DNA from: Candidatus Raymondbacteria bacterium RIFOXYA2_FULL_49_16
Lineage (GTDB): Bacteria; Fibrobacterota; OXYB2-FULL-49-7; XYB2-FULL-49-35
Length of the DNA stretch: 64,000 nucleotides
Direction of reading: 5' to 3'
Assembly: GCA_001789205.1 (NCBI GenBank)
Contig: MFYT01000009.1
Coordinates: forward strand, 34,854-98,853
Shown here: positions 42,598 to 59,893 of the stretch, piece by piece
Layout: every line of letters begins with the position of its first letter
Position numbering within the stretch: position 1 is the first letter of the stretch
Notes under the pieces: generated by a model
Database searches by the model: none
Told to the model about the DNA's origin: nothing
What the model saw: the letters and a program-made list of their open reading frames with translations, nothing else
Position numbers and translations under genes: made by a program

Positions 42598-42832
42598 TCA
42601 ATGTGTTATTTTCTATAAATCGAGGCCAGTGACGGCCTCGTAATATTATTTACCGGTTTGTTTTCGAGCCGTCTGGCTCGATCTTTAAAACAAAAAATGA
42701 TGGTCAACAGGCAGCCTCTGTGCTGCCTGCTGGCCCCAACGAGCGGCCTTGCAATTTTCGTTAGAAAAGTCTTCGGGAATTTCCTCTTTTTCGCATTGTT
42801 CCGCTTCGTGCTCAACTATTATTTTCTTGTTC
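42598..42832. other. Hairpin-rich intergenic region, possible antisense small ORF
   Basis: Three further stems follow the terminator: CGAGGCC with GGCCTCG (42621-42640), CGAGCC with GGCTCG (42665-42680), and CAGGCAGC with GCTGCCTG (42708-42729). On the minus strand a 49-codon frame from ATG 42834 to 42685 reads NKKIIVEHEAEQCEKEEIPE and looks protein-like, but it has only a weak ribosome binding site and overlaps the divergent regulator start by two bases. It is reported here as a possibility and not as a gene. Confidence 0.4.
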
Positions 42833-44791
42833 ATGCCTGCTATTCTTTCACTTTGCATCCTTGTCTTCTCTGTCATGCTGGAGCCGCTTGAGGCGCAGGT
42901 CCTTTTTTACGAAGATTTCGAAAACACGGACGTCAGTCTTTCGTGGGAGCAACCTGAAGGCCCAAAACCGTGGCTTACCTTGTCAGAAAAGAGCGCATTT
43001 TCAGGGACCCGCGGTGTCAATATCACAAATGGCGAAAGTCACATGGCGCGGCGTAACCTGATGTGGCCCGTTGCCTCGTCGGCCTGCACGGCCGGGGTCT
43101 ATCTGGCTTTTCGGTGCAGGTTCAACGCGCCCGGCCTTGGCGATACGGCTGGCGCACTAGAACGTTTTCCCCTGGTACATTGGGAAATTACCGCGGGAAA
43201 CAGCAAGTTCAGTAACCCCACGCTGCTGGTGGTTCAGAACAGCCAGGGCAATCCCTGCTTTCGCATGCTGTCACGAAACCATAAAAGCGCGGAACCTGTG
43301 ACGACCGGAGACACACCGCTTACAACCGTGACTCCGGATACGTGGTATTCGCTTGGCATCTATGTCCGGCTCAACGGCGCTGCGCTTATCGACTCCCTGT
43401 TCATAAACGGACAATGCGCGGGCGCGGCGAACATTGCGCTTGAGCAGGCGCCCCTGTTTCTGAATTATATCTCCTTTGGATTCAACAGAAAATCGAGCCT
43501 TCCCCTGAACAGCGTTGACATTGACGATATTATTCTCACGCGTACGCGGACCGACCCCTTTCTTCCCTATCGGGTGGTCCGCAGACCAGCCGCCTTTGAG
43601 TATGTTGGTTCACCTCCTGTCAAATTCGAAATTCAACCGGACGCCATACCCGAAGGTTCACGTTCAATTCTCGTACATATATTACAGGATCACGCATGTA
43701 TTGCCCAGAGCGTGTGCGCCATTGATTCACTAGTGACCTTTGACAATGTACTTGCCCCTCATATACCCTACACCTATTGCCTGATTTTCCAGGGAGGCGA
43801 ATGCAGGTTTCCTGAACAGCGGGGCGGTCCCTTTATGATCGCCGAACACGCAGAGGAGGAAGAAACGCGGTCTTTTGGCGCAGGCACAATCCGGTTTGTG
43901 TTGCCGCACGCCAATGCTGGCCGGGTGATGGCGGGCGATACGCTTTTGGTGGAACTTTCCTTTGAACCGCAGAAAGATGGGACCTGTTTTATTGATCTGA
44001 ACATAGGATCGGTGAAGTTCTCCGAATCGCGGCACGAACGGTTCGGCGTGTATGATCCGGGAAAAAACCTGGTTTTCAGTCTCTGCAAACAGGACCTGGT
44101 CTATGGTAAGTACCAGGAAGGGACCAACCAGTTGAAAGCGGTCTCTCTTGTCGATACAGGAAGCGAGTATCCCTTTAATTTCATAGATGCCGGAGGATAT
44201 TCGTTTGATCAGCGCAAAGGGAATGCGCGCTTTCCCTTTGTCATAACCCGGGACATGGAGCCTGGCATATGGACCATACGCGCGTATCTGGTGAACGAAC
44301 ACACGGGTCTGCGCCTTTCGTTCAATTCCCTCTTCTTTACTGTTGGCCGCCCTCTTTTTTCAGCAACGCACGTGCTGTTGGTCCTTTTCTGTGTGTGCGG
44401 CGCAATTGTTATACGTGTCCTTCTTCGCCGCAGGCAACGCAAAAACGAGCCGCCTTCCTCATCGTGGCTTTCCGTGGCTGATTCCATCGAAGAATTGATC
44501 ATACAGACGTATAGAGATACAAATCTTTCGAACAACACCATTGCCCAACACGTGAATTTGAGCACCCCCAAGGTTACTGAAATATACCAACGGGTAAAAG
44601 GAAAAACACCTGTGCAGCATATCCGGGAGATACGGCTCGAAAAAGCGGGTTTGCTGCTTAAAACCACCATGAAATCCGTTTCTGAAATAGCGTATGAGGC
44701 CGGCTTTTCAGATCCGGTCGTTTTTCAACGCAACTTCAAGAAACACAAAGGGTTAACCCCTGGCCAGTATCGGGATAAAAAATCTGATTAA
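42833..44791 (+). CDS. Transmembrane AraC-type regulator with periplasmic sensor
   Basis: A 652-residue protein. A signal peptide (MPAILSLCILVFSVMLEPLEA) is followed by a periplasmic jelly-roll-like domain (LFYEDFENTDVSLSWEQPEG, to about residue 245), a middle beta region and an Ig-like domain (GDTLLVELSFEPQKDGTCFIDL, about 370-500). One membrane helix lies at about 511-532 (VLLVLFCVCGAIVIRVLL). The cytoplasmic end (about 555-650) is an AraC-type double helix-turn-helix: NNTIAQHVNLSTPKVTEIYQ and SVSEIAYEAGFSDPVVFQRNFKKHKGLTPGQYR. Start 42833 is chosen because it opens the signal peptide; an upstream TTG extension has no support. It is a paralogue of the 53747 gene over its whole length and is followed by three secreted protein genes it may control. 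Confidence 0.88.
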   Translation: MPAILSLCILVFSVMLEPLEAQVLFYEDFENTDVSLSWEQPEGPKPWLTLSEKSAFSGTRGVNITNGESHMARRNLMWPVASSACTAGVYLAFRCRFNAPGLGDTAGALERFPLVHWEITAGNSKFSNPTLLVVQNSQGNPCFRMLSRNHKSAEPVTTGDTPLTTVTPDTWYSLGIYVRLNGAALIDSLFINGQCAGAANIALEQAPLFLNYISFGFNRKSSLPLNSVDIDDIILTRTRTDPFLPYRVVRRPAAFEYVGSPPVKFEIQPDAIPEGSRSILVHILQDHACIAQSVCAIDSLVTFDNVLAPHIPYTYCLIFQGGECRFPEQRGGPFMIAEHAEEEETRSFGAGTIRFVLPHANAGRVMAGDTLLVELSFEPQKDGTCFIDLNIGSVKFSESRHERFGVYDPGKNLVFSLCKQDLVYGKYQEGTNQLKAVSLVDTGSEYPFNFIDAGGYSFDQRKGNARFPFVITRDMEPGIWTIRAYLVNEHTGLRLSFNSLFFTVGRPLFSATHVLLVLFCVCGAIVIRVLLRRRQRKNEPPSSSWLSVADSIEELIIQTYRDTNLSNNTIAQHVNLSTPKVTEIYQRVKGKTPVQHIREIRLEKAGLLLKTTMKSVSEIAYEAGFSDPVVFQRNFKKHKGLTPGQYRDKKSD

Positions 44792-44914
44792 TAAAAAGTC
44801 TCTTTTATTTTAAAATAGTCTCATCTGTTTTCATATAATCTGCTGTTTTATTTCCATTATCATTGTTTTAAAATTTCCCTGAAATTATATTTGCATTTAA
44901 TAGTAGGGAGGTAA

Positions 44915-45979
44915 ATGATGAAAACAGTGATCCGTGTTCTGGCACTGGCCGGTTTCTTCTCGGTTTCCCAGGGTTATGTTGTTGATTCCCTGTTGTTTGG
45001 CGATGATTTCGATGGTGCTCTTGAGAACTGGGTGTGCGAAACCGTCATCGGCGGCAGCGTGAACATCGTAAGCGGGGTTGTTGATATTGACGACAATGGC
45101 GGCACCGCGGTCTGGTATAAATATCCACTGTCCGACAGCATTGCCATTGAATACAGCGCCCGCTGCTTAAGTGATGGCGCAAATTTGACTGATCTGAACT
45201 GTTTCTGGATGGCGCGCGACCGCGAAAGTACGCCTGTATTGTCGTTGGATAGCGCTTCGTTTTTCAATGCCGGCCGCACAGGCCTGTGGGCCACCTATCA
45301 TTCGCTTGAGGCGTATTACTTCGGCTATGGCGCAAATCTCAACACCACGTTTAACCTGCGCCGGTATTATGACCCAAACGCTCTTCCAACAGAAGTGCTG
45401 AGCATGCCGCGCGATGGTCACCGGGTCATTATTGCCAGCGACAACCAGACAGGCCTCATCACTGCGGGAACGTGGTACCGCTTCAAGGTGGTATATTTTA
45501 AGGGTCTCATAGAGGTATGGGTAAACAATGTCAAACAATTTACCTATACTGAACAATCGTATGACGTGCCGTATAATCGCGGGTATTTTGGATTCCGTAC
45601 CACCTATTCTGTCCATGCGCAGTTCGATTCTGTGCGCATCTTCCTGCTGAAAACAAGTTCAGCGAGCATAGACGACCACGGCATGAGAAACACCAAAGAG
45701 CAGGGGATCAAATGTTCTCCTAACCCGTTTAATCCAATGACAAAAATAACAATTCCGAATTTAATATTACAAAATACGAATGAAGAATTTAAAATATTTG
45801 ACATACGGGGTAAACTGGTTAAGGACCTGACACCGGAAATTCGCTCGCCTCGCGTCGCCGCAGGCGAAGCGGGTAATTCCATTACCTGGGACGCCTCGGC
45901 CCTGCCATCGGGCGCTTATATAATAAAAGCCCAGGCCGGTGCAAACGTGCTCACAAAAAAAGTAATTCTGGCGCGGTAA
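44915..45979 (+). CDS. Secreted DUF6250-type protein with C-terminal sorting domain
   Basis: A 354-residue secreted protein with GGGAGG before the ATGATG start; either ATG could be used. A signal peptide ends near SVSQG. Residues about 25-250 match DUF6250, a jelly-roll domain seen with polysaccharide lyases and other carbohydrate enzymes (WYKYPLSDSIAIEYSARC, then TWYRFKVVYFKGLIEVWVNN and NRGYFGFRTTYS). The C-terminal domain (about 270-354) is a type IX-like sorting domain: PNPFNPMTKITI, FKIFDIRGKLVKDL, ITWDASALPSGAYIIKA and a basic hydrophobic end. A palindromic element encodes the loop SPRVAAGEAG. It follows the transmembrane AraC gene by 123 bp. Confidence 0.85.
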   Translation: MMKTVIRVLALAGFFSVSQGYVVDSLLFGDDFDGALENWVCETVIGGSVNIVSGVVDIDDNGGTAVWYKYPLSDSIAIEYSARCLSDGANLTDLNCFWMARDRESTPVLSLDSASFFNAGRTGLWATYHSLEAYYFGYGANLNTTFNLRRYYDPNALPTEVLSMPRDGHRVIIASDNQTGLITAGTWYRFKVVYFKGLIEVWVNNVKQFTYTEQSYDVPYNRGYFGFRTTYSVHAQFDSVRIFLLKTSSASIDDHGMRNTKEQGIKCSPNPFNPMTKITIPNLILQNTNEEFKIFDIRGKLVKDLTPEIRSPRVAAGEAGNSITWDASALPSGAYIIKAQAGANVLTKKVILAR

Positions 45980-46023
45980 TTGCGTTAATCCATGGCATGA
46001 GCCCAACCGAAAAGGAGCACACA

Positions 46024-47658
46024 ATGAGAAAGATATTCCTCATGTTTTTTTGTCTTTCTATGTTAAGCGGTTTGGCATTTTCTCAAAACAACACCAAACA
46101 ACTGCTTAAGGGCCGCTACTTGAACGTTGTGGGCGGATTTGACGTTCCCAATGTGCGAATTGATAATATGAACCTGATCTGGAGCCGTCTGCAGATCGAC
46201 AAGCTGCCTGGAACAAACACATGGGCCATCAGCCATCCATCCGGGTATGTGCTGGAACTGATTGAACCCGAGAGCCTCGGGGTGGTGGGAGAACCCTGGC
46301 CCGCAATGACAGAGGGCCGGCGCCAAGCTGCTTTTACTTCCGTGGATAAGATTAGTCCCCAAGGTGTGTTCTGGCTGAACCAGAACGAACTGCTGACTTC
46401 TGGCCGTAGATCATACCGCGGGCCGTTCGAACCTAACTGGATGGCTAGAATCAATATTCAAACCGGCGAGGAAATTCTTTACACCATAACATCTGAAGAG
46501 AATGAAGAGGGCCCTAATTTCCATATGATGCAGGGACTGGGAGCGGGTTTTGTGCGGATCAGCGATACTGCCTGGGCCGCGACTTATGCAAACGGCAACG
46601 CCTTCCTTCTTGGCCGTGGAGGCTACGACGTACTCGGTTCACCGCTTGGCCCTGCCTTGGGGGTCTGGAACATTGATGAGCCTCACGCAAGATATCTGCT
46701 CGATTTTCCCATGGATCATCCTCTTCGACGGGATCCTTACTATACCTATGCTGGCGGGGAAGCGCAGCAGCTCCTCATGTGGAAGGACCCGGATTCAAAC
46801 GGGGGCTTCTGGCAGGCCGGGGACGTAGGCGGTTTGGCATTTATCAACCACCCGCAAGTCAAAGGTATTGTGGCAACCCACAATCATGGCCGGGGCCTGC
46901 ACGACTATCGCGCCCAGGGAGACGGGGGTAGTGGAAGTTTTTTTCTTGTTCTTGATCCAGCCGTGTTTTACAGCACTGAAAGCAGCGGAGGCAACCGCGG
47001 CGACCATGAAAGCGATACCAGTCTGGCACACTACCCCAAGGGCGTGTATGCGAGAGTTGGCCACATTTTTGACCCTGACCATCTTGCAGAGGTGGCCCAG
47101 GGTACTCGGCAGCCCTGGGAGTGTCCTTCCGAGCGTTTTGAATGGCCGCGCGCGGGCATCGAATGGAACGAGCAAGACAGGCCTACCCTGCTGGGCGCCG
47201 TGTATTGGGACAATGAGCGCCAATTGCTCTGGCTGGCCTTGGGCATGCCTGTGGTAAAACTGGTCGCTTACGAGATTGTCGTGGACGACAGCCGTCCAGA
47301 GGAACCGATGCGCCTGCCCGAGAGCTGGCTGGATAACGAGAAAAACCTGGTTCAGGCGGATATTACGGCAGATGATGTAATACAGGTTACCCCGAATCCG
47401 TTCAACCCGAGCACGGTGATAACCATCAATGCGGCATCTGCGCCGCAATTGAGGATATACAATATTCAGGGAACATGCGTCGCTTCTTTCCACCCCGGCG
47501 CGATTGCGTCTGGAGATACGTATTCCAGCCTGCACGGCAACGCACAGATAAAGACCGCATACACGTGGCGCGCCGCCGGCCAAGCGTCCGGTCTCTATAT
47601 CGTCCATGCGGTTGTACATAAGCGTGTTTATACAAAACGAATAATATTTGAGAAATAA
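46024..47658 (+). CDS. Secreted protein of unknown function with C-terminal sorting domain
   Basis: A 544-residue secreted protein. AAGGAG lies six bases before ATG 46024, and a signal peptide (MRKIFLMFFCLSMLSGLAFS) follows. The body (about 25-450) has many Trp, Gly and Asp turns (PGTNTWAISHPSGYVLELIEP, RGPFEPNWMARINI, GIVATHNHGRGLHDY, FEWPRAGIEWNEQDRP) and could be a beta-propeller with an embedded ligand site; no family is recognised. The C-terminus has PNPFNPSTVITI, LRIYNIQGTCVASF and SGLYIVHAVVHKRVYTKRII, a sorting domain. It is the second gene of the three secreted genes after the AraC-type regulator. Confidence 0.75.
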   Translation: MRKIFLMFFCLSMLSGLAFSQNNTKQLLKGRYLNVVGGFDVPNVRIDNMNLIWSRLQIDKLPGTNTWAISHPSGYVLELIEPESLGVVGEPWPAMTEGRRQAAFTSVDKISPQGVFWLNQNELLTSGRRSYRGPFEPNWMARINIQTGEEILYTITSEENEEGPNFHMMQGLGAGFVRISDTAWAATYANGNAFLLGRGGYDVLGSPLGPALGVWNIDEPHARYLLDFPMDHPLRRDPYYTYAGGEAQQLLMWKDPDSNGGFWQAGDVGGLAFINHPQVKGIVATHNHGRGLHDYRAQGDGGSGSFFLVLDPAVFYSTESSGGNRGDHESDTSLAHYPKGVYARVGHIFDPDHLAEVAQGTRQPWECPSERFEWPRAGIEWNEQDRPTLLGAVYWDNERQLLWLALGMPVVKLVAYEIVVDDSRPEEPMRLPESWLDNEKNLVQADITADDVIQVTPNPFNPSTVITINAASAPQLRIYNIQGTCVASFHPGAIASGDTYSSLHGNAQIKTAYTWRAAGQASGLYIVHAVVHKRVYTKRIIFEK

Positions 47659-47677
47659 TTCCTTAGTGGAGGCAAAT

Positions 47678-49846
47678 ATGCATACGAAGTTCCTGGTTCC
47701 AGTCGTACTGTTTTCCATTTATGGATTCGTTGCCGGGGCTGCTCCGGATAGCCTGACCGCAGTCCATAGACATGGTCAAACTTTTTTAACCTGGAAAGAT
47801 GTTCCAGGCGCCACTGCATACCGGATTTATAGAGCTGGAGGAGCAATGTCTCCCGCGGACCTGATTGTGGCGAACCGAATTGCGGAAATTCAAAGCGGTT
47901 CTTCAAAAATCGGATACTGGGACATCACCCAAATAAAAGGAACCGCGGTCCGGGACTTCACCACGGCCATCGGTTCTGATTTTTACCGTATCGATGATCT
48001 GGGAACGCCTTTGAACGATTCAAATGAACTGTTTGTATGGACCACCCAGGAATCAGGCGGCGGCGCCTTCCACTATACCGTTACGGCCGTAACCGGCGCT
48101 TCCGAGGATGCTTCCATCGGCGCTGGAAACCGCGTTGGGCCTGTTTCTGAAAATGAATGCGTCATGATTTGGCCCGTGGAACAGGCCCGCACCGCCGACC
48201 AGTCGGGCCACGTATTCATGATGTGGATGCCCTATGACAAATGGGCCCTTGATTTTCAGGGATATGCCTATCCCATATACCTGGCCGCAAAACCGGAATT
48301 TATTGGACAAAAGAAAAAGGTGGTCCTGCACATGCATGGCGCGAGCGCCTATTTCAACGCATGGATGAATGACGGTTCCACCATTAAAACCGCTGTCGAG
48401 GCCCTTGCGTCCGACTATCTCATGGTCATTGCCGATGACCCGGGCATGTCCTGGCATTTCGGGTTTGCAGACACCAAGCAGAACGGCGTCAACACCATTG
48501 CCGATGGCAGTGTGGTTAAAAACTACACTCAATACCGTAACTGGTGCATGATACGCTGGCTCATCTCGGGTCAGGCACCGTGGCTTGGCGACAGCAACGA
48601 AGTGGCGGCGCTAGGCCATTCCATGGGAGGCACGGGCTCCATGACCTTTGCCATCCAGCATCCCGAGATATTCGCCTATGTGGAGTATGCTTCCGAGGGG
48701 ATCAACAACTGGCTCATGGACCCGCCCTACCGGGCAGACGGCTGGGCAAAAAATTTCGCCTACTGCATAGGAAGCGAGGACCAGGACCTGGAATATCGGG
48801 ACCTTATCAGCAAGGATAAGCTGATTGACAACCAGGATATGGGCATGCGCGCCTGGGCATGGCTCTCAATGCGCGACAGCGTTACCCTGGCATACAGGAA
48901 CCGGGACGATCTGCCCTTTCTCAATTTTTGTCATGGTACGCAGGACGGATCTATAGACTGGGAACCACAGGGCCTGCCGGTGTGGCAAGACCACAATGCC
49001 AACCCGTTTGCGGCCAACCTGTTTCCTTATTCGGGCTGCTGGGTAAACAGGGGCCATTCGAGTCAGGGCGCCAAGGGCGCCAACCCCAGCGGATATGTGC
49101 CAAAAAACCATTTTGTACTGGCCTTGAAAAATGCCTCCTCTGACGATCAGCTCAATCCAGCATGCGATGCCGTGTCCTGCGCGGACAGCGGTCAGTTCAA
49201 TGCGCGTATTCTCTGGTCAACGGAGCGGACAACCATTAACGAACCGCCAGTAGATAGCCCCGATGAATTCAGCACAACAATCAAGCTCGATACAAAAACC
49301 ATTTATTACCTCCCGGTATACGGCGGATCTGGAACCGAGACTGTGGACATAACGCCAAGGCGGCTCCAGCAATTCCCGCGCATTCCGTATGCGGAGTATG
49401 ACTGGCAGAACATTCCAGCCGGAGGCGGTGCTCCAGTGCAGAACGGAACTGCTATTGCTGATCAATACGGCATGTTTACCATTGAGGGTTTTCGATTCAG
49501 CGTTGCAGGAAACAAGCTGGTGGTTACAACTTCCAGTGCGGGCGCAACCGTCAATGCCGGTTTAGATGATCAGGAAGTCATGATCAAAACAAGTCCAAAT
49601 CCGTTCAATCCGGTAGTGACAATAGCTGTCAGAAATCAGCAGGCAATTGGCAGCAAGACCATCGTGTTTGAAATATTCGACGTTCACGGAAACCTTGTTG
49701 CTAAACTGCCGGCTGTTAGTCCGGCCTGCGGCGGACTGCCTGCTGAAATAACCTGGAACGCGGCAGGAAAGGCTTCCGGTGTGTATATTGTCCGCGCTGT
49801 GGCAAAGAATCGCGTACATACTACCCGTATAATATATTCAAAATAA
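47678..49846 (+). CDS. Secreted alpha/beta-hydrolase (esterase-like) with sorting domain
   Basis: A 722-residue secreted hydrolase. GGAGG precedes ATG 47678 and a signal peptide ends near FVAGA. A fibronectin III-like segment (DSLTAVHRHGQTFLTWKDVPGA) opens the protein. The hydrolase core has the nucleophile Ser315 in GHSMGGTGS, a likely Asp423 in GTQDGSIDW and a likely His460 in NRGHSSQG; the same three are conserved in the paralogue at 55621. Next is a domain with VDITPRRLQQF (about 545-620), shared with the paralogue. The end is a sorting domain (PNPFNPVVTIAV, FEIFDVHGNLVAKL, SGVYIVRAVAKNR). Esterase action on a polysaccharide is inferred from context. Confidence 0.85.
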   Translation: MHTKFLVPVVLFSIYGFVAGAAPDSLTAVHRHGQTFLTWKDVPGATAYRIYRAGGAMSPADLIVANRIAEIQSGSSKIGYWDITQIKGTAVRDFTTAIGSDFYRIDDLGTPLNDSNELFVWTTQESGGGAFHYTVTAVTGASEDASIGAGNRVGPVSENECVMIWPVEQARTADQSGHVFMMWMPYDKWALDFQGYAYPIYLAAKPEFIGQKKKVVLHMHGASAYFNAWMNDGSTIKTAVEALASDYLMVIADDPGMSWHFGFADTKQNGVNTIADGSVVKNYTQYRNWCMIRWLISGQAPWLGDSNEVAALGHSMGGTGSMTFAIQHPEIFAYVEYASEGINNWLMDPPYRADGWAKNFAYCIGSEDQDLEYRDLISKDKLIDNQDMGMRAWAWLSMRDSVTLAYRNRDDLPFLNFCHGTQDGSIDWEPQGLPVWQDHNANPFAANLFPYSGCWVNRGHSSQGAKGANPSGYVPKNHFVLALKNASSDDQLNPACDAVSCADSGQFNARILWSTERTTINEPPVDSPDEFSTTIKLDTKTIYYLPVYGGSGTETVDITPRRLQQFPRIPYAEYDWQNIPAGGGAPVQNGTAIADQYGMFTIEGFRFSVAGNKLVVTTSSAGATVNAGLDDQEVMIKTSPNPFNPVVTIAVRNQQAIGSKTIVFEIFDVHGNLVAKLPAVSPACGGLPAEITWNAAGKASGVYIVRAVAKNRVHTTRIIYSK

Positions 49847-49858
49847 AAATCACGCTCG

Positions 49859-49898
49859 CCCGGCCGGCAACAAACCCCCTCTTGCGCCGGCCGGGTTT
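49859..49898 (+). terminator. Strong terminator after the first secreted-protein run
   Basis: A 10-bp all-GC stem (CCCGGCCGGC at 49859-49868 and GCCGGCCGGG at 49886-49895), followed by TTTCCCC. It lies 13 bp after the hydrolase stop and closes the run that started at 44915. Confidence 0.8.
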
Positions 49899-49949
49899 CC
49901 CCGTTTCCCGCATTGTTCTTACGTCCGCTGAACGATTATCTTCTTGGTC

Positions 49950-51059
49950 ATGCACAATGCCCTTCCCCAGGCAAGCGAAACCCTGCACCAGATTTCGCTC
50001 AATACGCTCGCGGGGCTCCTTGTTCTTCTTGCCGCCATTACACTCTACGCGCTGCTGAAACATCGGACCAACAACAGGCTCCAGGAAATTATGGACCGCC
50101 TTATCCCGCGTTTTGAAGGGCTTATTGCCGCAGGCCGGGCAGGCGCCTTTGATCTTGCGCTCATTGCCGATGTACTGCAGCCAACGCATTATGATTTTTT
50201 CGAGCGCTTCTTGCGAAACAAGATCAGCCATCTCGAACCCGCTGATCTTTCGGTGGAACGAAGGCTGGCCAATATTTCAGGCTTTGTGTCATGGGTGAGG
50301 AAACGGGCGCAAGAAAAGAAAAAATGGCAGCAGGCCATTGCCCTGCGCACTCTCACCTATTTCCGCGACCCGGCCGACATTCCTCTTTTCAGGTCCATAC
50401 TCGACACCTGGACCTTTTTTCCCTGCGCCTATGCAGCTGTCATAGGCCTTGGCCTGTGCAACGACACCCAGTCAATAGAACCAATCATCTGCCGGATCTC
50501 ACGCACAAACAGTCCCAACCGCGATGTTCTGCTCACCGTGCTCAACCCGCTGGTAAAAGACGGGGCCGAGGAAATGCACCGGTTGCTCAAGTCAGGCAAA
50601 CTGCACGAGGCAGCGGTGTGCGTGCTCATAGACCTGCTGCGCGAACACGGTTACCGGCCCGCTCACAACACGCTCGAAAGCCTGTTGGAAAAATCAGAAA
50701 GCGAAGAAATCCGCATCCACTGCATTGAAGCGCTCAGTGTTCTCGGCGATGCCGAGAGCGTGGATATCCTGATTCCCTTTTTAGTCGAGGACAATTTCAA
50801 GCTCCGGCTCAAAGCCATTAGCGCGGTTGCACGGTTGTTCGGCGGCCGCGCCCTTCCCTTTGTTGAAAAATACATCCGCGACATGAACTGGTGGGTAAAG
50901 CGGACTGCGGCAGAGGCCCTCTACCGCATGGGCAGCCAGGGCCAGGAACGGCTCGCCGCGATAGCCGCCGCGCCGGGCGACCAGGCCTCCATGATGGCCA
51001 AACTGATTCTTGCGGAGGCCGCGTGCGGCAGGCTGCGGGGGGAAATCAAGGGTGTATAA
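49950..51059 (+). CDS. Membrane-anchored HEAT-repeat protein
   Basis: A 369-residue protein. ATG 49950 is preferred over the in-frame TTG 49944. One N-terminal membrane helix (TLAGLLVLLAAITLYALL) anchors a cytoplasmic or periplasmic helical solenoid: repeated HEAT/PBS-lyase-like units such as SEEIRIHCIEALSVLGDAESVDIL, DNFKLRLKAISAVARLFGG and DMNWWVKRTAAEALYRMG. Such scaffolds often sit next to glycosyltransferases of exopolysaccharide systems, and here a GT2 gene follows after one base. The protein probably assembles the synthase complex. Confidence 0.8.
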   Translation: MHNALPQASETLHQISLNTLAGLLVLLAAITLYALLKHRTNNRLQEIMDRLIPRFEGLIAAGRAGAFDLALIADVLQPTHYDFFERFLRNKISHLEPADLSVERRLANISGFVSWVRKRAQEKKKWQQAIALRTLTYFRDPADIPLFRSILDTWTFFPCAYAAVIGLGLCNDTQSIEPIICRISRTNSPNRDVLLTVLNPLVKDGAEEMHRLLKSGKLHEAAVCVLIDLLREHGYRPAHNTLESLLEKSESEEIRIHCIEALSVLGDAESVDILIPFLVEDNFKLRLKAISAVARLFGGRALPFVEKYIRDMNWWVKRTAAEALYRMGSQGQERLAAIAAAPGDQASMMAKLILAEAACGRLRGEIKGV

Positions 51060-51060
51060 C

Positions 51061-52488
51061 ATGTTCCTGGAGTTCCTCTACTGGTTCAACTGGTTTATCC
51101 TTGGATATTTCATTCTTCTCAATGGCTTTTATTTTCTGCTGCTCATCATCTCCTCGTTCGCCGTGGCCCGGTACAACAAGGAATTCGTGGTGACCAAAGG
51201 CGTGAGACTGCCCATCACTTTTGTCAAGCCCTTTTCCATCCTGGTCCCGGCTTACAACGAGGCCTCGGTGATCGTGGAGGCGCTGCGCTCGTTTCTCTCT
51301 CTTGATTTTGAGGAATATGAGGTGATTGTGTGCAACGACGGGTCCAAGGACAACACACTCCAGGTGCTCATGGACGAATTCGCCCTGGTCCCTGTCGAAG
51401 GCGCCATAAAATACCGTTTCCCCTGCAAGCCCATTAAAACGGTCTATTTTTCAAAGACCCATTCGCGGCTCGTGGTGCTGGACAAAGAGAACGGCGGCAA
51501 GGCCGATGCCCAAAACGCGGGCGCCAATATCGCCCGGTATCCGTATATGGGCGCCGTGGACTCTGATTCGCTCCTCTCGTTTGACAGCATGCGTAAGCTC
51601 ATGGCGCGCTTTTCCGCGTCGCCCGAGACCGTGGGCGTGGGCGGTATTGTTCGTATCAGCAACGGCAGCCGCATTGAAAACGGCCATGTGGTCGATGTGC
51701 GCCTGCCCACCTCACTGTTGGAAAACATCCAGGTGGTCGAATATTTGCGCGCCTTCCTGTATGGCCGCATGGGCTGGTCGCACCTCAATATATTAATGAT
51801 TATTTCCGGCGCGTTCGGCGTGTTCCGCCAGGACGTGCTTGCGCGCGTGGGCGGGTGGAACAGCAAGGCATTGGGCGAAGATATTGACGTGGTGCTTAAG
51901 ATCCACCGGCTCATCCACGAAAACAAGCTGCCCATGCGCCTCTCGTTTGCGCCCGATCCCGTGTGCTGGACCCAGGCGCCGGCAGACCTCAAGGGCCTGG
52001 GCGTGCAGCGCGATCGGTGGCAGCGCGGCCTCATGCAGACGCTCTTCTTGAATATCAGGTTGTTTTTCAATCCTCGCTACAAGCAGATTGGTATGCTGGG
52101 CTACCCTTATTTTTTCCTTTTTGAAATGCTGGGCGGCGTCTTTGAGTTCATTTCATATCCCATCATATTCGCCTGCTTTTTCTTTGGTATAGTAAACCTC
52201 AGCTTTTTCGTGCTCTTTATGAGCGTGGCCCTGATCTGGGGGCTTTGCATATCGTATATGTCCGTGGCGCTTGAAGAGGTCTCGTACCGCAGATACAGCA
52301 AAAAAGGCGATATTTTCAAACTCTTTGCCGCGGGCTTTTTTGAAAATTTCGGCTACCGCCAAATCCATTCATGGTGGCGCGTACGCGGGTTTTTCAAATA
52401 CATATTCGGCATCAACTCAGGATGGGGCACCATTCAGCGCGCGCAGTTTAAGAAACGGACCGTCATCCAGGAGAACCCAATATCATAA
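51061..52488 (+). CDS. Processive family 2 glycosyltransferase
   Basis: A 475-residue inner-membrane synthase of the PgaC/cellulose-synthase-like kind. The helix at about 8-35 is followed by the GT-A core: PAYNEAS (63-69), CNDGSKDNT, DSD at 167-169, ED at 273-274 and QRDRW at 316-320, the D,D,D,QxxRW pattern of processive enzymes. Further helices at about 350-440 form the export channel. ATG 51061 starts one base after the HEAT gene stop. The sugar is unknown; PNAG- or hyaluronan-type polymers are possible. Confidence 0.92.
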   Translation: MFLEFLYWFNWFILGYFILLNGFYFLLLIISSFAVARYNKEFVVTKGVRLPITFVKPFSILVPAYNEASVIVEALRSFLSLDFEEYEVIVCNDGSKDNTLQVLMDEFALVPVEGAIKYRFPCKPIKTVYFSKTHSRLVVLDKENGGKADAQNAGANIARYPYMGAVDSDSLLSFDSMRKLMARFSASPETVGVGGIVRISNGSRIENGHVVDVRLPTSLLENIQVVEYLRAFLYGRMGWSHLNILMIISGAFGVFRQDVLARVGGWNSKALGEDIDVVLKIHRLIHENKLPMRLSFAPDPVCWTQAPADLKGLGVQRDRWQRGLMQTLFLNIRLFFNPRYKQIGMLGYPYFFLFEMLGGVFEFISYPIIFACFFFGIVNLSFFVLFMSVALIWGLCISYMSVALEEVSYRRYSKKGDIFKLFAAGFFENFGYRQIHSWWRVRGFFKYIFGINSGWGTIQRAQFKKRTVIQENPIS

Positions 52489-53687
52489 TGAAACCATACG
52501 CTTGTGTCCGGGTCCTCGTATTGTACGCTGCCATGCACTGGTCTGGGATGTTGCTTTTTGCTCAGCCTGTTGTTCCCACCTACGAAGATCGCATGACAGA
52601 GGCCCTTGAATTGCGGCGACAGGGCCATGCCGCCTTAGCGGAAAAACTGTACGACACTGTTTTGCGTGACAACCCCAAGGACGTTGACGCGCTGGTGGGC
52701 AGGGGCTTTTGCCGGCTTGGGGACCCGTCGCGGGCCCATGAGGCGCTCAATGACTTCAGGACAGCGGCCGCCCTTGCCCCGCGCTACGCGGACGCCTATA
52801 TCGGCATGGCGCGCGCGTGCGAGCTCAAAGGCAAACGCTCCATGGCCACGGCGATCCTGAAAGACGGCATAAATGCCCTGGCAACGGACAGCGCGGCATC
52901 GCGGTATTTTGCGCATCTCTGCTGGGAAAACAGCTTTTTCCCCACTGCGCGCGCGGTTGACAAAGCTTTTAAGCCCGATCCTGGCCGCGCACTTATCGCA
53001 CGGCCCTTTTCGGCCATGGCCGACGAGTCATACGACCGGCTGTTCAACGATGATACGTGGTGGGTGTCGAGTCTTGTGGTCCAGTACAAACCCAGGCCCG
53101 ACCTGCAGGCGTGGGCAGCGGCAATGCCTGTGGGCAGATACCAGCGCACGGATTTTCTGGCAGGCGCTGGTGCGGCCTTCAGGTACGACAAGTTCCTCTC
53201 CCTGACCTACGAAGGCCTGTTCTCGGACAAGGCTGGTTTTTGTCCGGTCCAGAAGCATCGGCCCCTGGTCTTGTACGCACTGTTACGTTCCACAGTGCTT
53301 GGTCTTGGCGCTGACCTTTCCGCATATGCGGACGGTTGGGCGCGTCTTGGCAGGGCCGAGATCACCCAGTATGCGGGCGATTCGTATGCCCATTACGCGT
53401 TCATAGCCGGCAAGGACAATGTTGACCAGAATATTGTCGCGCATGTGGGCGACATGCAGTATGTGCGCGATGGAAAATTTGCCATTGGTTTTGGCGGTTC
53501 CTATGGTAACGAGACCGCTGACCTCGTGGGAAGCGAGTATACGCAGAGCCTTGTGCAGTCGATTTTCGCCTCATTTTCATTTGTTATAAATCCCCTGGTC
53601 GCACTACGGACAACGCTGGGCAGGGAATGGCGCGACCATGATTCCTTCAGGACCATGGTGAATGTGGGAACAACGGTGAATTTTTAG
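52488..53687 (+). CDS. TPR plus YaiO-type outer-membrane beta-barrel protein
   Basis: A 399-residue protein. A signal peptide ends near LLFAQP. Residues about 35-150 contain tetratricopeptide repeats (GHAALAEKLYDTVLRDNPKDVDALVGRGFCRLG in part). The remaining 230 residues have alternating strands ending in an aromatic (TTVNF), as in an outer-membrane beta-barrel of the YaiO family. In E. coli yaiO lies beside a GT2 gene as well. Its ATG overlaps the GT2 stop (TAATG). It is most likely the outer-membrane exit or guide for the polymer. Confidence 0.75.
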   Translation: MKPYACVRVLVLYAAMHWSGMLLFAQPVVPTYEDRMTEALELRRQGHAALAEKLYDTVLRDNPKDVDALVGRGFCRLGDPSRAHEALNDFRTAAALAPRYADAYIGMARACELKGKRSMATAILKDGINALATDSAASRYFAHLCWENSFFPTARAVDKAFKPDPGRALIARPFSAMADESYDRLFNDDTWWVSSLVVQYKPRPDLQAWAAAMPVGRYQRTDFLAGAGAAFRYDKFLSLTYEGLFSDKAGFCPVQKHRPLVLYALLRSTVLGLGADLSAYADGWARLGRAEITQYAGDSYAHYAFIAGKDNVDQNIVAHVGDMQYVRDGKFAIGFGGSYGNETADLVGSEYTQSLVQSIFASFSFVINPLVALRTTLGREWRDHDSFRTMVNVGTTVNF

Positions 53688-53746
53688 GCCCTGTCCTGTT
53701 TGGACATGTCAATAATGAAGGGGAAAAAAGTATATTTTCACCGTCA

Positions 53747-55414
53747 ATGAAAAAAATTCTCCGGTTCCTTATCGCCCTCGCTGTTCCATGTCTTTGCGCA
53801 AACGTGACTGATGGACCTTTGTTTCTTGACGGTTTTGAAAACGCCAATCCCTTTGCCGGTTGGGAAATTATCTCCCCCGATCCTGTGGAAACATGGGCCC
53901 TGGTTGAGACCAGAACAGCGTCTTCCGGCGCAAAGTGCCTCCGGCTGGTTCCAGGAAACCTGCATATTCTGATCAAACGGACCCTTATGCCTGTCCATGC
54001 TGCCTCTGTGGCCAAAGGGTTCTATTTCTCATTCGATTTCAAGATAGACAAGGCCAGTATAACAGCCGGACCCAGCGGTCCTCTCTGGGGCACGCTCCTT
54101 TCATGCGTTATGTCCGGGTCTTGGCCATTGTATGGCAATCCAACGGTGCTTATCGAAAAACAAGGGTCTGATCTTTTCTTAAAAATGCTCATGCGCCAGA
54201 AGCACGGCGACATGCCGCTTACCATCCCGCCCGATCCCGTGGTACGCGTTGCACCGGATAGATGGCATGCGCTCTCAGTGTTTGTGAGCATACGGGATTC
54301 CGTGCTGATTGATTCGCTTTTCTATGATGACCGTTGCATAGGCGCTGGTACGCGCAGGTTCATAGTCATGCCGGCCATGATCGAGAAAATCGAATTGGGG
54401 CAAGAACGCAAAGATGGCCTGCCGGTTTCCTCAATTTGTTTTGATAATGTCAGCATATCAGCCAAGCGGACGGTAAACACACAACCCGCAAACCTGATGA
54501 CACTGCGGCCGGATCGCGGCAACAACCCGGTATTCTCGGTTGGGGACACGCTGTATCTTGACTTTATCGTTAACCCAATGACACGGAATGATTATATTGA
54601 CCTGAATTTCCGGTTGACGTCATTTGAGGGATCAAAATTAGACCGGTACGGGGTTTTGGATAAAAAAAGAAACCTTGTCTTTAGTTTGTATGATTCAGCG
54701 CGAGTCCCCTATAAAGACCAGGAAGGGCTCAATTCATGGGGCGCCGTCTCCAAGGACGCCATTGCTTTGCGTTCATATCCCTTTACAACGCTTCTCATGG
54801 ACGCATACTATTTCAATCCGCGTAATGGAGAAGGGACCATTGCATTGCGTATTAACAAGGACTTTGAACCAGGGCGCTGGGAGATCAATGCCTGCATGGT
54901 GCATACAGGGCAAAGTAATGACGCGCAGGTCCTGCCGTCACTATCTTTTTATATAAAACCGCGTTATCCAAAATTGCGGCTGTTGATCGGCTTGGCGGCC
55001 GGCCTGATCAGCCTTGTTATTGTGTCAATGGTCTATACGAGACGCTCCGTGGTAAAAGACACCGCGTTAAAAGGGGACCTTAGCGACATTGTGCTGAAAA
55101 TAGACGACTTTCTTGCCAACAACTACGCAAACAACGACCTATCGCATGAAGATATCGCGAAACATGTATTTTTAAGCAAACCGCACACAAATATGCTCTA
55201 TAAGCGGTCCCAGGGCATATCACCCATGCAAAAATTACGTGATATCCGGATGCAAAAAGCCTGTGAATTGCTGCTTTCCACTGAAAAATCCATTTCCGAC
55301 ATTGGTTTTGCGGTTGGCTTTCAGGACCAGAACAATTTTCTGAGAAGTTTCAAAAAATCGATTGGTTTTTCACCAAGCGATTATCGAAAAACGAGGAAAA
55401 ACCAGCCCAGGTAA
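53747..55414 (+). CDS. Transmembrane AraC-type regulator, paralogue of the 42833 gene
   Basis: A 555-residue protein. A short signal peptide (MKKILRFLIALAVPCLCA) precedes a periplasmic jelly-roll domain (LFLDGFENANPFAGWEI, to about 245), then an Ig-like domain (VGDTLYLDFIVNPMTRNDYIDLNF, about 260-400). A membrane helix at about 409-430 (LLIGLAAGLISLVIVSMVY) leads to an AraC-type DNA-binding domain at about 450-548: HEDIAKHVFLSKPHTNMLYKR and SISDIGFAVGFQDQNNFLRSFKKSIGFSPSDYR. Shared phrases with the 42833 protein (NLVFSL, EPG-R/I-W, the Gly-Val-x-D-x-x-x-N-L turn) show common origin. It lies 206 bp upstream of the paralogous hydrolase gene on the same strand and probably senses a polysaccharide fragment. 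Confidence 0.88.
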   Translation: MKKILRFLIALAVPCLCANVTDGPLFLDGFENANPFAGWEIISPDPVETWALVETRTASSGAKCLRLVPGNLHILIKRTLMPVHAASVAKGFYFSFDFKIDKASITAGPSGPLWGTLLSCVMSGSWPLYGNPTVLIEKQGSDLFLKMLMRQKHGDMPLTIPPDPVVRVAPDRWHALSVFVSIRDSVLIDSLFYDDRCIGAGTRRFIVMPAMIEKIELGQERKDGLPVSSICFDNVSISAKRTVNTQPANLMTLRPDRGNNPVFSVGDTLYLDFIVNPMTRNDYIDLNFRLTSFEGSKLDRYGVLDKKRNLVFSLYDSARVPYKDQEGLNSWGAVSKDAIALRSYPFTTLLMDAYYFNPRNGEGTIALRINKDFEPGRWEINACMVHTGQSNDAQVLPSLSFYIKPRYPKLRLLIGLAAGLISLVIVSMVYTRRSVVKDTALKGDLSDIVLKIDDFLANNYANNDLSHEDIAKHVFLSKPHTNMLYKRSQGISPMQKLRDIRMQKACELLLSTEKSISDIGFAVGFQDQNNFLRSFKKSIGFSPSDYRKTRKNQPR

Positions 55415-55620
55415 CATATCTTCTTATTTTTCAATGCATTACTATCAAAACAAGCTTTACCCGTAGCGTCCTTTTCATAGAAAATGCCGAAAATCTTAGA
55501 AAAAGCCGAACGATTCTTCATAAATGCTGAATCAATTGCAGTAAAATGCCTTTGCAACGAACCAGTTGGGAAATATATTATTAAAAAATAATCGCCATAA
55601 CCCGCAAAAAGGAGGAGTGT

Positions 55621-58179
55621 ATGAAATATGTACTCATGTGTTTCTTGGCTGTCAGCGCCATAACCGTTTTTTGCGCCACTTCCACGCGAAGCTTTACCAA
55701 TAGTCCAAGCAGGGGTTCGGACCCGGCAACGCTGTCAAAATCCAGCAACACAATCACCGTGAACCTGTCCGCCATCCAGGACGCCCAGGTATACCGGGCC
55801 GTACTGAATCCATATGTCAATGTACACTGGCAGAACAACGGCTGCACGGCCAATGACGCCAGGGTTGTACTTACCAGCGGGGACACTGTCCGGCCAATGC
55901 CGCCCCGGTATCTTTCGTTTGACCTGACAGAAGCGGTGGCCGCCGCAATCGCGTCCGGGACCATTACCTTTACCCTTACCGGCATCCAGTGCATCCACTT
56001 GACAGACCTTATCTCGCTTGATGTTATGTGCGACAGAGCTGCTCCCGCGGCCATTGCCCAGGTAACAGGGACCGAGGCGCGGTTCAAGGACGGGGACGCC
56101 ATGATCACGTTCCATGAAGTGAATCCCTTTTTTACCACGGACAGCGTTACCTGCACGGACGTGATCAATGCCAAGGCAGCCATGAGTGACCCAAAAGTGC
56201 GTTACCGGATCTACCGTTCAAACCAGCCATTGACAACTGAAGAGGCTATCCGGACAGCGACCTTTGTCGACGAAATAGGGCCGTTGTCAAATTGGAATCC
56301 CATGTTCTACGGCGACGGCAACTGCAACTGGTCATGGACCGCCTCAAAACTTCTCCAGATAGTCCCCCGGCTCCCCAAGGACGACCTGGTGCTGACCGAT
56401 CCCGATGAAGGCATATATGTCAATCGATTCACCGGGACCGGCATTGAAACAGCGTATTATTTTGTGAGTCATTCGGTTGACGGAGCAGAGGACTTCTCGC
56501 TGTTAGAGAATGACCGCAATGCGGCCGGTCCTGTCGAGGAGTCAACTGGTCCTGGCATGGTCGTCAAACGTGTAGAGGAAAGTCCGGCTGTCTGGCAGTT
56601 TATCACCAATCCAACGCTGCATTATTACGTACGCTGGGAATGCCCGCCAACGTGCAACAAACCGAGTCAGGCGTACGATTATCTTGTGGCAATACCTTCA
56701 TCCGGAATGAAGGCCAGCAATGGCCTCAGCGTGGCATTGCATTGTTGGGGAGCAAGCCTGCAAGAACCAGTGCCAGGATGGACCCCGGGCCTGACCGGGA
56801 GCAAAGGCTATCTCCTTCTTTCCACGAACCAGTGGCCGTATGACTGGTGGACCGCCTATAATGAAAATTACGAGACATTGAAAAACTTGGGCAAAGGATC
56901 GGTAAAGCCCTTTACCGAGGTCCGCATACTGTCCTTTCTCTATGATTTCGTCAAAGATGGCTATAGTATTGACATGAACCGGGTGACCCTGGGCGGCCAG
57001 TCAATGGGCGGGACAGGCACTTCCCTGTGGGGTCTGCGGAGCGGTCATATTTTTTCCATGTTGTTTTCCTATGTCGGCGTTCACAAGCCCTCTGAATCGC
57101 CTTCATTCACCTCTTCGTTCAAAGGTATTTTCGGGGATCCTGCTGTCTATACCTGTTATTACTCCAACGAAGCGCTGGAACGGTTCGGGTATCCGGTCAT
57201 CCGGCCCCAAGACAGCGTATATGTGTGGGATTACTGGGACAATACGCAATGGCTGCGCGCGAACCCGACAACGGAGACCCCGTGGATAGCGTTGTCCAAC
57301 GGCCTGAACGATGGACAAATCGGCTGGCCGCAAGCGACAAAAAATGAGGCTGCGCTGCGAGAGACCAAACGGCCCTATAACTTTCATTGGGACATGCAGG
57401 GCCACGGATGCCAGGTCCGGTATCCCGGGTCAGGGATTGTTGAATTCAAAAAGTACCAGTCCGTGCCTGTATTCTCAAATTGCTCATTTAATACCGATAT
57501 CCCGCCCTCGGTCTCCGATACTACCGCGACCAACTCTAAAGGGGAGGTCAACAGGTATTTTGACTGGAAGGCGGACAGCATTGTCGATCAGACTGACCGC
57601 TGGGAAATAAGTCTCAAACTCGCGTATGTTGATAACGTCTATCCGCCAACACTGCCCCCGGCGGACTCATGCGCAGTAGACATTACCCCCCGCAAGCTGC
57701 AGGCCCTTGAGCATGGTCCTGGATCCACCTATTCCTGGGAACTGGCGCAGGGCGTAACAACGCTTGCAAACGGCACTGCGACAGCGGATTCAAACGGGCT
57801 GGTCACCATTCCGCAATTGTCAGTCACAAAAACATACCGTACCCTGAAACTTTCATGCATCCAGTGCACGGCCGGGGCCGGCAAGCCGCAAACACCGATG
57901 ATGGAGTCTTATTCCCTTCGTAACGCGCCCAACCCGTTCAACCCGGGCACAGTGATAGAATTCGACGCGGGAAAGACAACGCAGAAGGTCACGGTTTCAG
58001 TATACGATCTTTCAGGCAAACTGATAAAAAAACTGGCGGACCAGAGACTGTCTGGAAAGCATTCCGTTTCCTGGAACGGCAAAGACATGCGCAACACTGA
58101 TGCGGCAAGCGGTATCTATATCACCAGGATGAGCGTGGGCAACCGGGTGGTTGTGAACAGAATGGTCCTTGTCAGGTAA
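55621..58179 (+). CDS. Secreted alpha/beta-hydrolase (esterase-like) with sorting domain, paralogue of 47678
   Basis: An 852-residue secreted enzyme, with AAAGGAGGAG before ATG 55621 and a signal peptide (VLMCFLAVSAITVFCA). Residues about 40-150 form an extra jelly-roll with DLTEAVAAAIASGTITFTL, like a DNRLRE-type cell-wall domain. The hydrolase core has Ser461 in GGQSMGGTGT, Asp564 in GLNDGQIGW and His595 in MQGHGCQ, aligned with the 47678 protein. The VDITPRKLQAL domain follows at about 680-760. The C-terminal sorting domain has PNPFNPGTVIEF, VSVYDLSGKLIKKL and SGIYITRMSVGNR. It follows the transmembrane AraC gene and ends at a strong terminator. Confidence 0.85.
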   Translation: MKYVLMCFLAVSAITVFCATSTRSFTNSPSRGSDPATLSKSSNTITVNLSAIQDAQVYRAVLNPYVNVHWQNNGCTANDARVVLTSGDTVRPMPPRYLSFDLTEAVAAAIASGTITFTLTGIQCIHLTDLISLDVMCDRAAPAAIAQVTGTEARFKDGDAMITFHEVNPFFTTDSVTCTDVINAKAAMSDPKVRYRIYRSNQPLTTEEAIRTATFVDEIGPLSNWNPMFYGDGNCNWSWTASKLLQIVPRLPKDDLVLTDPDEGIYVNRFTGTGIETAYYFVSHSVDGAEDFSLLENDRNAAGPVEESTGPGMVVKRVEESPAVWQFITNPTLHYYVRWECPPTCNKPSQAYDYLVAIPSSGMKASNGLSVALHCWGASLQEPVPGWTPGLTGSKGYLLLSTNQWPYDWWTAYNENYETLKNLGKGSVKPFTEVRILSFLYDFVKDGYSIDMNRVTLGGQSMGGTGTSLWGLRSGHIFSMLFSYVGVHKPSESPSFTSSFKGIFGDPAVYTCYYSNEALERFGYPVIRPQDSVYVWDYWDNTQWLRANPTTETPWIALSNGLNDGQIGWPQATKNEAALRETKRPYNFHWDMQGHGCQVRYPGSGIVEFKKYQSVPVFSNCSFNTDIPPSVSDTTATNSKGEVNRYFDWKADSIVDQTDRWEISLKLAYVDNVYPPTLPPADSCAVDITPRKLQALEHGPGSTYSWELAQGVTTLANGTATADSNGLVTIPQLSVTKTYRTLKLSCIQCTAGAGKPQTPMMESYSLRNAPNPFNPGTVIEFDAGKTTQKVTVSVYDLSGKLIKKLADQRLSGKHSVSWNGKDMRNTDAASGIYITRMSVGNRVVVNRMVLVR

Positions 58180-58200
58180 CGCGACATCCACCCGAATCAG

Positions 58201-58235
58201 GCCCGGTGCGTCCCTAAAAACGCGCCGGGCTTTTT
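58201..58235 (+). terminator. Terminator after the second hydrolase
   Basis: GCCCGGTGCGT at 58201-58211 pairs with ACGCGCCGGGC at 58220-58230 (one mismatch), followed by TTTTT. It is a good intrinsic terminator that separates the hydrolase from the next regulator gene. Confidence 0.88.
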
Positions 58236-58333
58236 AAAAATCCACCATACACGCAAAAAATCCAAAAAATACCAAGGTGTTCGCTTTCAAAAGTAATCAT
58301 TGATGCCGGAAAGAATATATATTTTAAAACAGT

Positions 58334-59893
58334 ATGCGGGTCTCCAAAGTCTTCATTATTTCTTTCCCGTTGGTCCTGCTCATGCTTTTTCTCCCAATCA
58401 TACGGCCACACCATGCATCCGCAGCCCCCTGCTTAACAAAACCGGTCAATGGAAGCGTGCTTTCAGCCTCGCTTGTACGCGTGGCCGTGGACGTTGACAC
58501 GAATATGGATGCCGTCAAGAAAGTGACCTTCCTTGCCGGCTACTACAAATCACTCGATGTCCTCAAGATATACCGCTTTCCGGAACAACTGCCCGTGGAT
58601 ACCATCGGCATTGCTGAAAAATCGCCCTACGAGGTCTTGTGGGACATTTCCGGAATCCCTGATCAGGACCAATACCGCCTTTCATTCGGATTCGCTGTGG
58701 AATACAAGGATGGTGCAACATTCACGAAAGATATGCAATACGGTGTGGCAAAGGAGCAGTTTTATATCATCGACAGGAATCCGGTCCTGAAAGGCATTAC
58801 CCTGAATTCATTGTTCATGGAACCGGCCCCTGTGGTCGACGGCGCGCTCAACGAATGGCGCACGTGCGATTCCGCTGTCTTTCACAACAATGACAACACC
58901 ATCACCATCTGGTCGGCATGGGACCAGCAACGGCTCTTTTTTGCCGCACGCGTACTTGACGACACCCTGGTAGCATTGCCTCACCGTGATTTCTCGGTCA
59001 GCAGGAGTGGTGAACAGTTCCTGAGAAACTTCCTCTGGGACGGCGTGGAGTTTGACTTTGATTTTAACAACAATCACAGTGAATTCAAGGATTCTGGCGA
59101 CGCGGAGATTTGTATTGGCGTTGATTCCTCGTTTGTGGGACGCAAAGACTACGTTGTCAATGGCGGGAACATTGAACGGTTCGGCGCCGGGATAGCGTAT
59201 TGCGTCCAGCGGATGTCCGAAGGATACTGCGTTGAAGTGGCTGTCCCCTGGAAGGACGCGGGCGTGCGGCCCAACAACGGAAAGACCATTGGGTTCGATG
59301 TCATCAACAAGGACCGGGACGACACTGCGGGCTACGCGCTCTTTTCATCGTGGAGCGGAGTCCAGAGCTTCAACAGCGACAACCCCAGCGAATGGGGCAA
59401 TCTCAAGCTGACCGGGAACAAAAAACCCTTCAAGGCCTTGCCCGTTGCGAGCATTGCCCTGTGCTTTTTATTGGCTGCCGTCCTTCTGGTTCTATGGAGG
59501 AAAAAGCCGGCAACAGCGCCTGCCGGAAACATGCCGGCAACAGCGTTCAGCCAGAGAGGCAGCGATGAGGACAGGATACGGATGATACGGGAGTATATTG
59601 AAGCGCATTACATGACCGAGGAATTCAACCTGAAACAGGCGGCTGACCATTTCAAGATGAATTATTCCTATTTCAGCACCCTTTTCAAGGATTTGCTGGG
59701 CCAGACGTTCCCGGATTATATTAACAAGAAACGCATTGAAAAGGCCAAGGGACTGCTGAGAACAACCAATGCGTCCATCACCCAGATCGCCCTGGACCTT
59801 GGGTTTAAGACCCCTTCCTATTTCAACAAGATATTCAAGGACCTGGAGGGCGTTACGCCCTCTGATTACCGGGGTTCCGGTATCCAGGGATAA
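58334..59893 (+). CDS. Transmembrane AraC-type regulator with CBM9-like sensor
   Basis: A 519-residue protein. A signal peptide (VFIISFPLVLLMLFLP...ASA) is followed by an Ig-like domain (about 35-145, CLTKPVNGSVLSASLVRVAV), then a CBM9/DOMON-like sugar-binding domain at about 165-355 (PVVDGALNEWRTCDSAVF, WDQQRLFFAARVLDDTL, VEFDFDFNNNH, YCVEVAVPWKDAGVRP). A membrane helix at about 369-388 (SIALCFLLAAVLLVLW) leads to an AraC-type DNA-binding domain (about 420-513): LKQAADHFKMNYSYFSTLFKD and SITQIALDLGFKTPSYFNKIFKDLEGVTPSDYR. CBM9 domains bind sugar-chain ends, so direct sensing of oligosaccharides in the periplasm is likely. It converges on the 59906 regulator gene. Confidence 0.88.
   Translation: MRVSKVFIISFPLVLLMLFLPIIRPHHASAAPCLTKPVNGSVLSASLVRVAVDVDTNMDAVKKVTFLAGYYKSLDVLKIYRFPEQLPVDTIGIAEKSPYEVLWDISGIPDQDQYRLSFGFAVEYKDGATFTKDMQYGVAKEQFYIIDRNPVLKGITLNSLFMEPAPVVDGALNEWRTCDSAVFHNNDNTITIWSAWDQQRLFFAARVLDDTLVALPHRDFSVSRSGEQFLRNFLWDGVEFDFDFNNNHSEFKDSGDAEICIGVDSSFVGRKDYVVNGGNIERFGAGIAYCVQRMSEGYCVEVAVPWKDAGVRPNNGKTIGFDVINKDRDDTAGYALFSSWSGVQSFNSDNPSEWGNLKLTGNKKPFKALPVASIALCFLLAAVLLVLWRKKPATAPAGNMPATAFSQRGSDEDRIRMIREYIEAHYMTEEFNLKQAADHFKMNYSYFSTLFKDLLGQTFPDYINKKRIEKAKGLLRTTNASITQIALDLGFKTPSYFNKIFKDLEGVTPSDYRGSGIQG

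Follow-up and report, generated by a model that had tools for sequence, protein, structure and literature searches.

Predicted single-pass membrane AraC regulators with exported sensors beside secreted-protein genes in a Raymondbacteria genome

Membrane-bound AraC regulators of polysaccharide genes are known from Bacillus, where proteins of the YesS/YtdP type carry two true helices around a Cache-type sensor. The closest described case is Saccharophagus degradans 2-40, in which 16 of the 31 AraC regulators are membrane-bound and 13 of these are paralogs; several adjoin cellulase or xylanase genes, and sensing of extracellular polysaccharides was proposed for them in 2008 (PMC2386152). Transmembrane regulators as a whole number 50,302 in 9,673 genomes (PMC10269533), 56% of them single-pass (PMC10269533, PMC5936718). 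In ToxR, CadC and TcpP a single protein carries the DNA-binding domain, the helix and the outside sensor (PMC10269533, PMC5936718); in ToxR and CadC the winged helix is N-terminal and the sensor C-terminal (PMC5936718). The hybrid two-component systems of Bacteroides, of about 1,350 aa, place an exported sensor at the N-terminus and an AraC domain at the C-terminus and control polysaccharide genes locally.

The window analyzed here, 64,000 nucleotides of the genome of Candidatus Raymondbacteria bacterium RIFOXYA2_FULL_49_16, encodes three proteins that resemble the S. degradans regulators in belonging to a duplicated set that often adjoins enzyme genes but have a single helix, whereas those of S. 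degradans mostly have 6–7 membrane segments and in two cases 2; the available part of that report mentions neither a CBM9 sensor, nor the sensor class called type A here, nor a tandem operator (PMC2386152). They share the one-protein design of ToxR and CadC in reverse order: a signal peptide stands in front and the AraC domain at the C-terminus, whereas ToxR and CadC begin with a winged helix and end in a periplasmic sensor, a contrast already drawn in the original prediction for this locus. Compared with the Bacteroides hybrid systems they are short (500–770 aa) and lack HisKA, HATPase and receiver domains as well as the Y_Y_Y/propeller sensor, so that neither the kinase nor the receiver which define a hybrid two-component system is present.

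Architecture and sensor domains of the three regulators

The three open reading frames were found where they had been predicted, and all three show the proposed layout of an export signal, an exported region of 350–500 residues, a single helix through the membrane and, at the C-terminus, an AraC domain:

42833..44791, + strand: P0001, export signal, type-A exported sensor, membrane helix 513-531, AraC domain 570-648
53747..55414, + strand: P0002, export signal, type-A sensor without a separate middle domain, helix 412-430, AraC domain 470-548
58334..59893, + strand: P0003, export signal, N-terminal region, CBM9 183-361, helix 369-387, AraC domain 437-513

P0001 has two possible starts, TTG at 42749 or ATG at 42833. 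At the C-termini, Pfam HTH_18 matched with E=1.4e-19 (P0001), 4e-19 (P0002) and 5.2e-22 (P0003), and the AraC domain matched the PDB structure of AraC (2k9s, E=7e-26); the domain with two helix-turn-helix units that is a hallmark of AraC/XylS proteins is thus present. Kyte-Doolittle analysis showed one internal membrane helix in each protein, and hydropathy a hydrophobic N-terminal export signal in each; a crude signal-peptide scanner, which also called half of the control ORFs, was too unspecific to be used as evidence. The domain search returned no histidine kinase or receiver family in any of the three proteins, in agreement with the original prediction, and none lies between helix and AraC domain: only 115–132 residues separate the helix end from the C-terminus across the 25 family members described below, leaving no room for a kinase. 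The proteins therefore combine a DNA-binding domain and at least one helix with no two-component parts, as transmembrane one-component regulators do. Mean net charge is +1.6 on the N-terminal side of the helix and +3.3 on its C-terminal side (25 members), and together with the helix position this positive charge fits the proposed N-out/C-in topology, with an exported sensor, for the whole family.

P0003 is the only one of the three with a recognised sensor domain, CBM9_1 (PF06452; residues 183-361, E=2.5e-15). A profile of the six CBM9 sensors in the host genome matched CBM9-2 of Thermotoga maritima Xyn10A (1i82) with E=1.6e-14; at the positions of the tryptophans that sandwich the sugar, inspected by eye, one aromatic residue is kept in 5/6 sensors (phenylalanine in P0003) and the other is not conserved. 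A carbohydrate-binding fold was recognised in this CBM9 subset only. Type-A sensors matched no Pfam family in 14/14 sensors scanned, P0001 and P0002 included, and in profile comparison their first domain weakly matched Cip1, a jelly-roll protein (E=0.0026 with the sensor only, 4e-6 at full length), the resemblance falling at both ends of Cip1. Of the sensor folds originally proposed, CBM9 is therefore borne out in P0003, whereas the jelly-roll or Ig-like assignment of P0001 and P0002 is not confirmed as it was worded. An AlphaFold model of P0002, computed with P0001 as the sole partner sequence, had a sensor pLDDT of 20–35 and was unusable. Comparison of the type-A sensor with the neighbouring DUF6250 protein and with a soluble 560-aa AraC protein detected no relation.

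Family members in the host genome and beyond

In the host genome (5.43 Mb, 100% complete), 54 HTH_18 matches correspond to 51 AraC proteins, 25 of which have the sensor-helix-AraC layout, with one truncated copy in addition. By sensor, 18 are type A (P0001 and P0002 among them), 6 are CBM9 (including P0003) and one is short. The short one (L014, G000:C39:95039-96013) is a 325-aa member whose exported domain has no Pfam match and looks CBM6/35-like by eye. The truncated copy (L050, G000:C109:14062-14559), a 166-aa fragment of helix and AraC domain with a 221-aa ORF 9 bp upstream, is on its sequence a truncated or frameshifted family member. L028, a further candidate by hydropathy, was not counted, being a soluble protein that contains a hydrophobic stretch in its interior. 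Considering that the longest AraC frame of the genome has 778 aa and that no Y_Y_Y match exceeded the cut-off, hybrid two-component AraC sensors appear to be absent from this host; histidine kinases do exist in its genome.

Among 168 genomes of the phylum, with the best candidates (at most nine) scored per genome, the type-A sensor was found at E≤1e-10 in the host genome only, and a diverged copy occurs in a genome of a sister order (L228 in G167, E=1.2e-9). The CBM9 form is spread across the phylum. The original prediction had suggested searching the phylum for the same architecture, and all 28 relative loci examined share it, with several other sensor lengths. G167 repeats the order of regulator and enzyme genes at gaps of 119–137 bp, in which a weak 20-bp repeat signal was detected (z=2.5, n=4).

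Outside the phylum, ten proteins of about 520 aa from Bacteroidota, mostly Prevotella (L120, L126, L128, L132, L138, L141, L144, L160, L179 and L188), consist of a sugar-binding-protein-like exported part, a helix and an AraC domain, are apparently kinase-less, and look as if derived from hybrid two-component sensors. Three more (L130, L137, L146) have a propeller-type exported sensor, a helix and an AraC domain, with no kinase domain apparent. Such proteins (L120, L126 and L188; L130, L137 and L146) are like the host family in export signal, sensor, single helix and C-terminal AraC domain and differ in the sensors themselves, which are sugar-binding-protein- or propeller-like as judged by eye, the absence of a kinase being read from length and sequence.

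Secreted neighbours and predicted operators

A model of the T9SS tail, built from six proteins of the window, was run on all AraC loci and on 14 arbitrary 20-kb stretches; at least 150 T9SS-tail matches occur in the host genome. Counting as neighbour a same-strand gene that is the first one downstream and lies less than 700 bp away, a T9SS-tail gene follows 16 of 26 membrane AraC genes (the 25 members and truncated L050) and 14 of 141 control ORFs (Fisher p=3.6e-8), in line with the dedicated link to secreted proteins that had been proposed, and 0 of 13 small soluble AraC genes (p=2.8e-4). For 10 of the 26 the downstream T9SS gene is absent; P0003 is among these, its next gene being convergent. 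Predicted targets include esterases, GDSL and GH30 proteins, a phosphoesterase and an Sde182-like protein, and in the window:

44915..45979, + strand: secreted protein with DUF6250 and T9SS tail, predicted P0001 target, 126 bp gap
55621..58179, + strand: esterase-like secreted protein with T9SS tail, predicted P0002 target

After P0001, three consecutive genes at 44915-49846 encode T9SS-tail proteins (DUF6250, one without assignment, and an esterase) and are likely one transcription unit. The host also has a second, parallel family of soluble AraC regulators of about 560 aa without a helix, present in the window at 59906-61585 (− strand) and in nine other genome copies; a divergent T9SS-tail gene adjoins 8/10 of these versus 3/141 controls (p=1.3e-9).

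Half-sites spaced by about 21 bp, with one half-site at −35, are the classic arrangement of AraC-type activators. In 15 gaps between regulator and enzyme genes, direct repeats peak at a shift of 21 bp (z=6.1; 0 of 300 dinucleotide-preserving shuffles), with a second peak at 40–43 bp; dropping three related promoters (those of P0002, L026/L062 and L032) leaves z=5.3, and 48 control gaps have no distinct peak. The score for three-copy arrays likewise exceeds that of controls (p=5e-6). The half-sites are AT-rich, and 4–5 of the 15 gaps have no clear array. Tandem half-sites about 21 bp apart near the −35 of the target, another AraC/XylS hallmark, are thus predicted for this family, as follows for P0001 and P0002:

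44826..44869, + strand: predicted P0001 operator, three TGTTTT half-sites at 44826, 44844 and 44864
44886..44891, + strand: putative −10 element TATATT of the gene at 44915, by consensus match only
55486..55553, + strand: predicted P0002 operator, half-sites GCCGAA at 55486, GCCGAA at 55505, GCTGAA at 55526 and GCCTTT at 55548
55574..55579, + strand: putative −10 element TATATT, 20 bp after the last P0002 half-site

The three-copy spacing pattern of P0001 occurs once in the genome. Downstream of the P0002 −10 element, AGGAGG lies at 55610 and the start codon at 55621. The P0002, L026/L062 and L032 promoters share four half-sites at 19/21/22 bp followed, after about 20 bp, by a TATATT-like −10; the DNA between the half-sites has diverged among them, and L032 has GAC in 4/4 half-sites where P0002 has GCC or GCT. 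The 5.43 Mb contain the pattern GMCGAA-N13-GMCGAA three times, each time at one of these regulators, and because it was derived from their promoters, finding them is circular and only its absence elsewhere is informative. For P0003 there is no convincing operator, the best candidate being a weak repeat at 58180-58333. Regions upstream of the regulators contain no clear 21-bp array, so autoregulation is not supported.

Proposed mechanism, alternatives and significance

We consider it likely from these sequence features that P0001–P0003 are single-pass inner-membrane one-component activators that act while tethered, P0001 and P0002 each serving its neighbour. The signal peptide would export the chain and the single helix would halt it, so that the large sensor would face the periplasm and the AraC domain would remain cytoplasmic. 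A ligand from outside, probably a glycan or another breakdown product of the polymer attacked by the neighbouring enzyme, would alter the sensor or its dimer state. In the stretch that separates the regulator gene from the following one, a tethered pair of AraC domains would then occupy the tandem half-sites at their spacing of about 21 bp. With the last half-site overlapping the −35 position, RNA polymerase would be recruited to the next gene, which encodes the secreted protein, and each regulator would have a largely private target next door.

The same observations could arise if the ligand triggered a cut near the helix that freed a soluble AraC domain for the operator, the tether serving as storage. 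The AraC domain does form a compact unit within 115–132 residues of the helix end, and the layout of gene and operator would be equally compatible; yet the linkers are short, no partner protease was noticed as a recurrent neighbour in an unsystematic look, and a local private operator needs no diffusible factor, which makes regulated proteolysis rather unlikely. Gene order could also reflect operon membership alone, regulator and enzyme being co-transcribed and the true targets lying elsewhere, considering that same-strand neighbours are common in this genome and that P0001–P0003 lie within a long same-strand run. We regard this as quite unlikely, as the gaps of 96–223 bp carry 21-bp arrays and TATATT-like elements, and the P0001 and P0002 arrays recur nowhere else in the genome except at two P0002 paralogs.

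Polymerase could also be obstructed by a half-site that ends 20 bp upstream of the −10, so that the regulator would repress its neighbour when ligand is absent; AraC/XylS proteins whose half-site lies at −35 are, however, mostly activators in general, and repression seems decidedly improbable. It is hardly credible that the proteins are kinase-less remnants of hybrid two-component systems whose signalling was lost. The nearest matches of their AraC domains are found in two-component and hybrid two-component proteins (PDB 6swi, 12aw), and kinase-less look-alikes exist in Bacteroidota, but 25 copies are intact and only one (L050) is truncated, related sets occur in sister lineages, and the sensors are not of the propeller type.

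Beyond tethered activation in the window, we tentatively propose lineage-wide cassettes of sensor, operator and enzyme, in which type-A sensors, a new domain family, or CBM9 sensors are joined to AraC domains, each with a private operator just after its own gene, and in which regulator and enzyme duplicate together while half-sites are re-tuned in concert. That membrane-bound AraC regulators are duplicated beside polysaccharide genes is already known (PMC2386152), as is the wide occurrence of transmembrane regulators (PMC10269533); with the kinase-less exported-sensor AraC proteins of Prevotella and other Bacteroidota, these precedents indicate that the rarity implied by the original prediction was overstated. 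Four things appear to be new: type-A sensors as a family, a CBM9 form present throughout the phylum, a constant gene arrangement, and tandem operators matched to the regulators; in the literature searched, coverage of which was incomplete, we found no publication on AraC proteins with CBM9 or type-A sensors.

An operator at the end of the gene for a membrane-inserted regulator would help to account for the ability of a tethered factor to locate its site. The 25 natural sensor/operator pairs of a single genome would offer a direct test bed for how such factors find DNA, and could also help to assign inducers to unknown secreted enzymes and to construct biosensors from one protein. With regulators of this kind, a phylum whose members probably degrade fibre would have its own simple equivalent of the Bacteroides hybrid two-component sensors.
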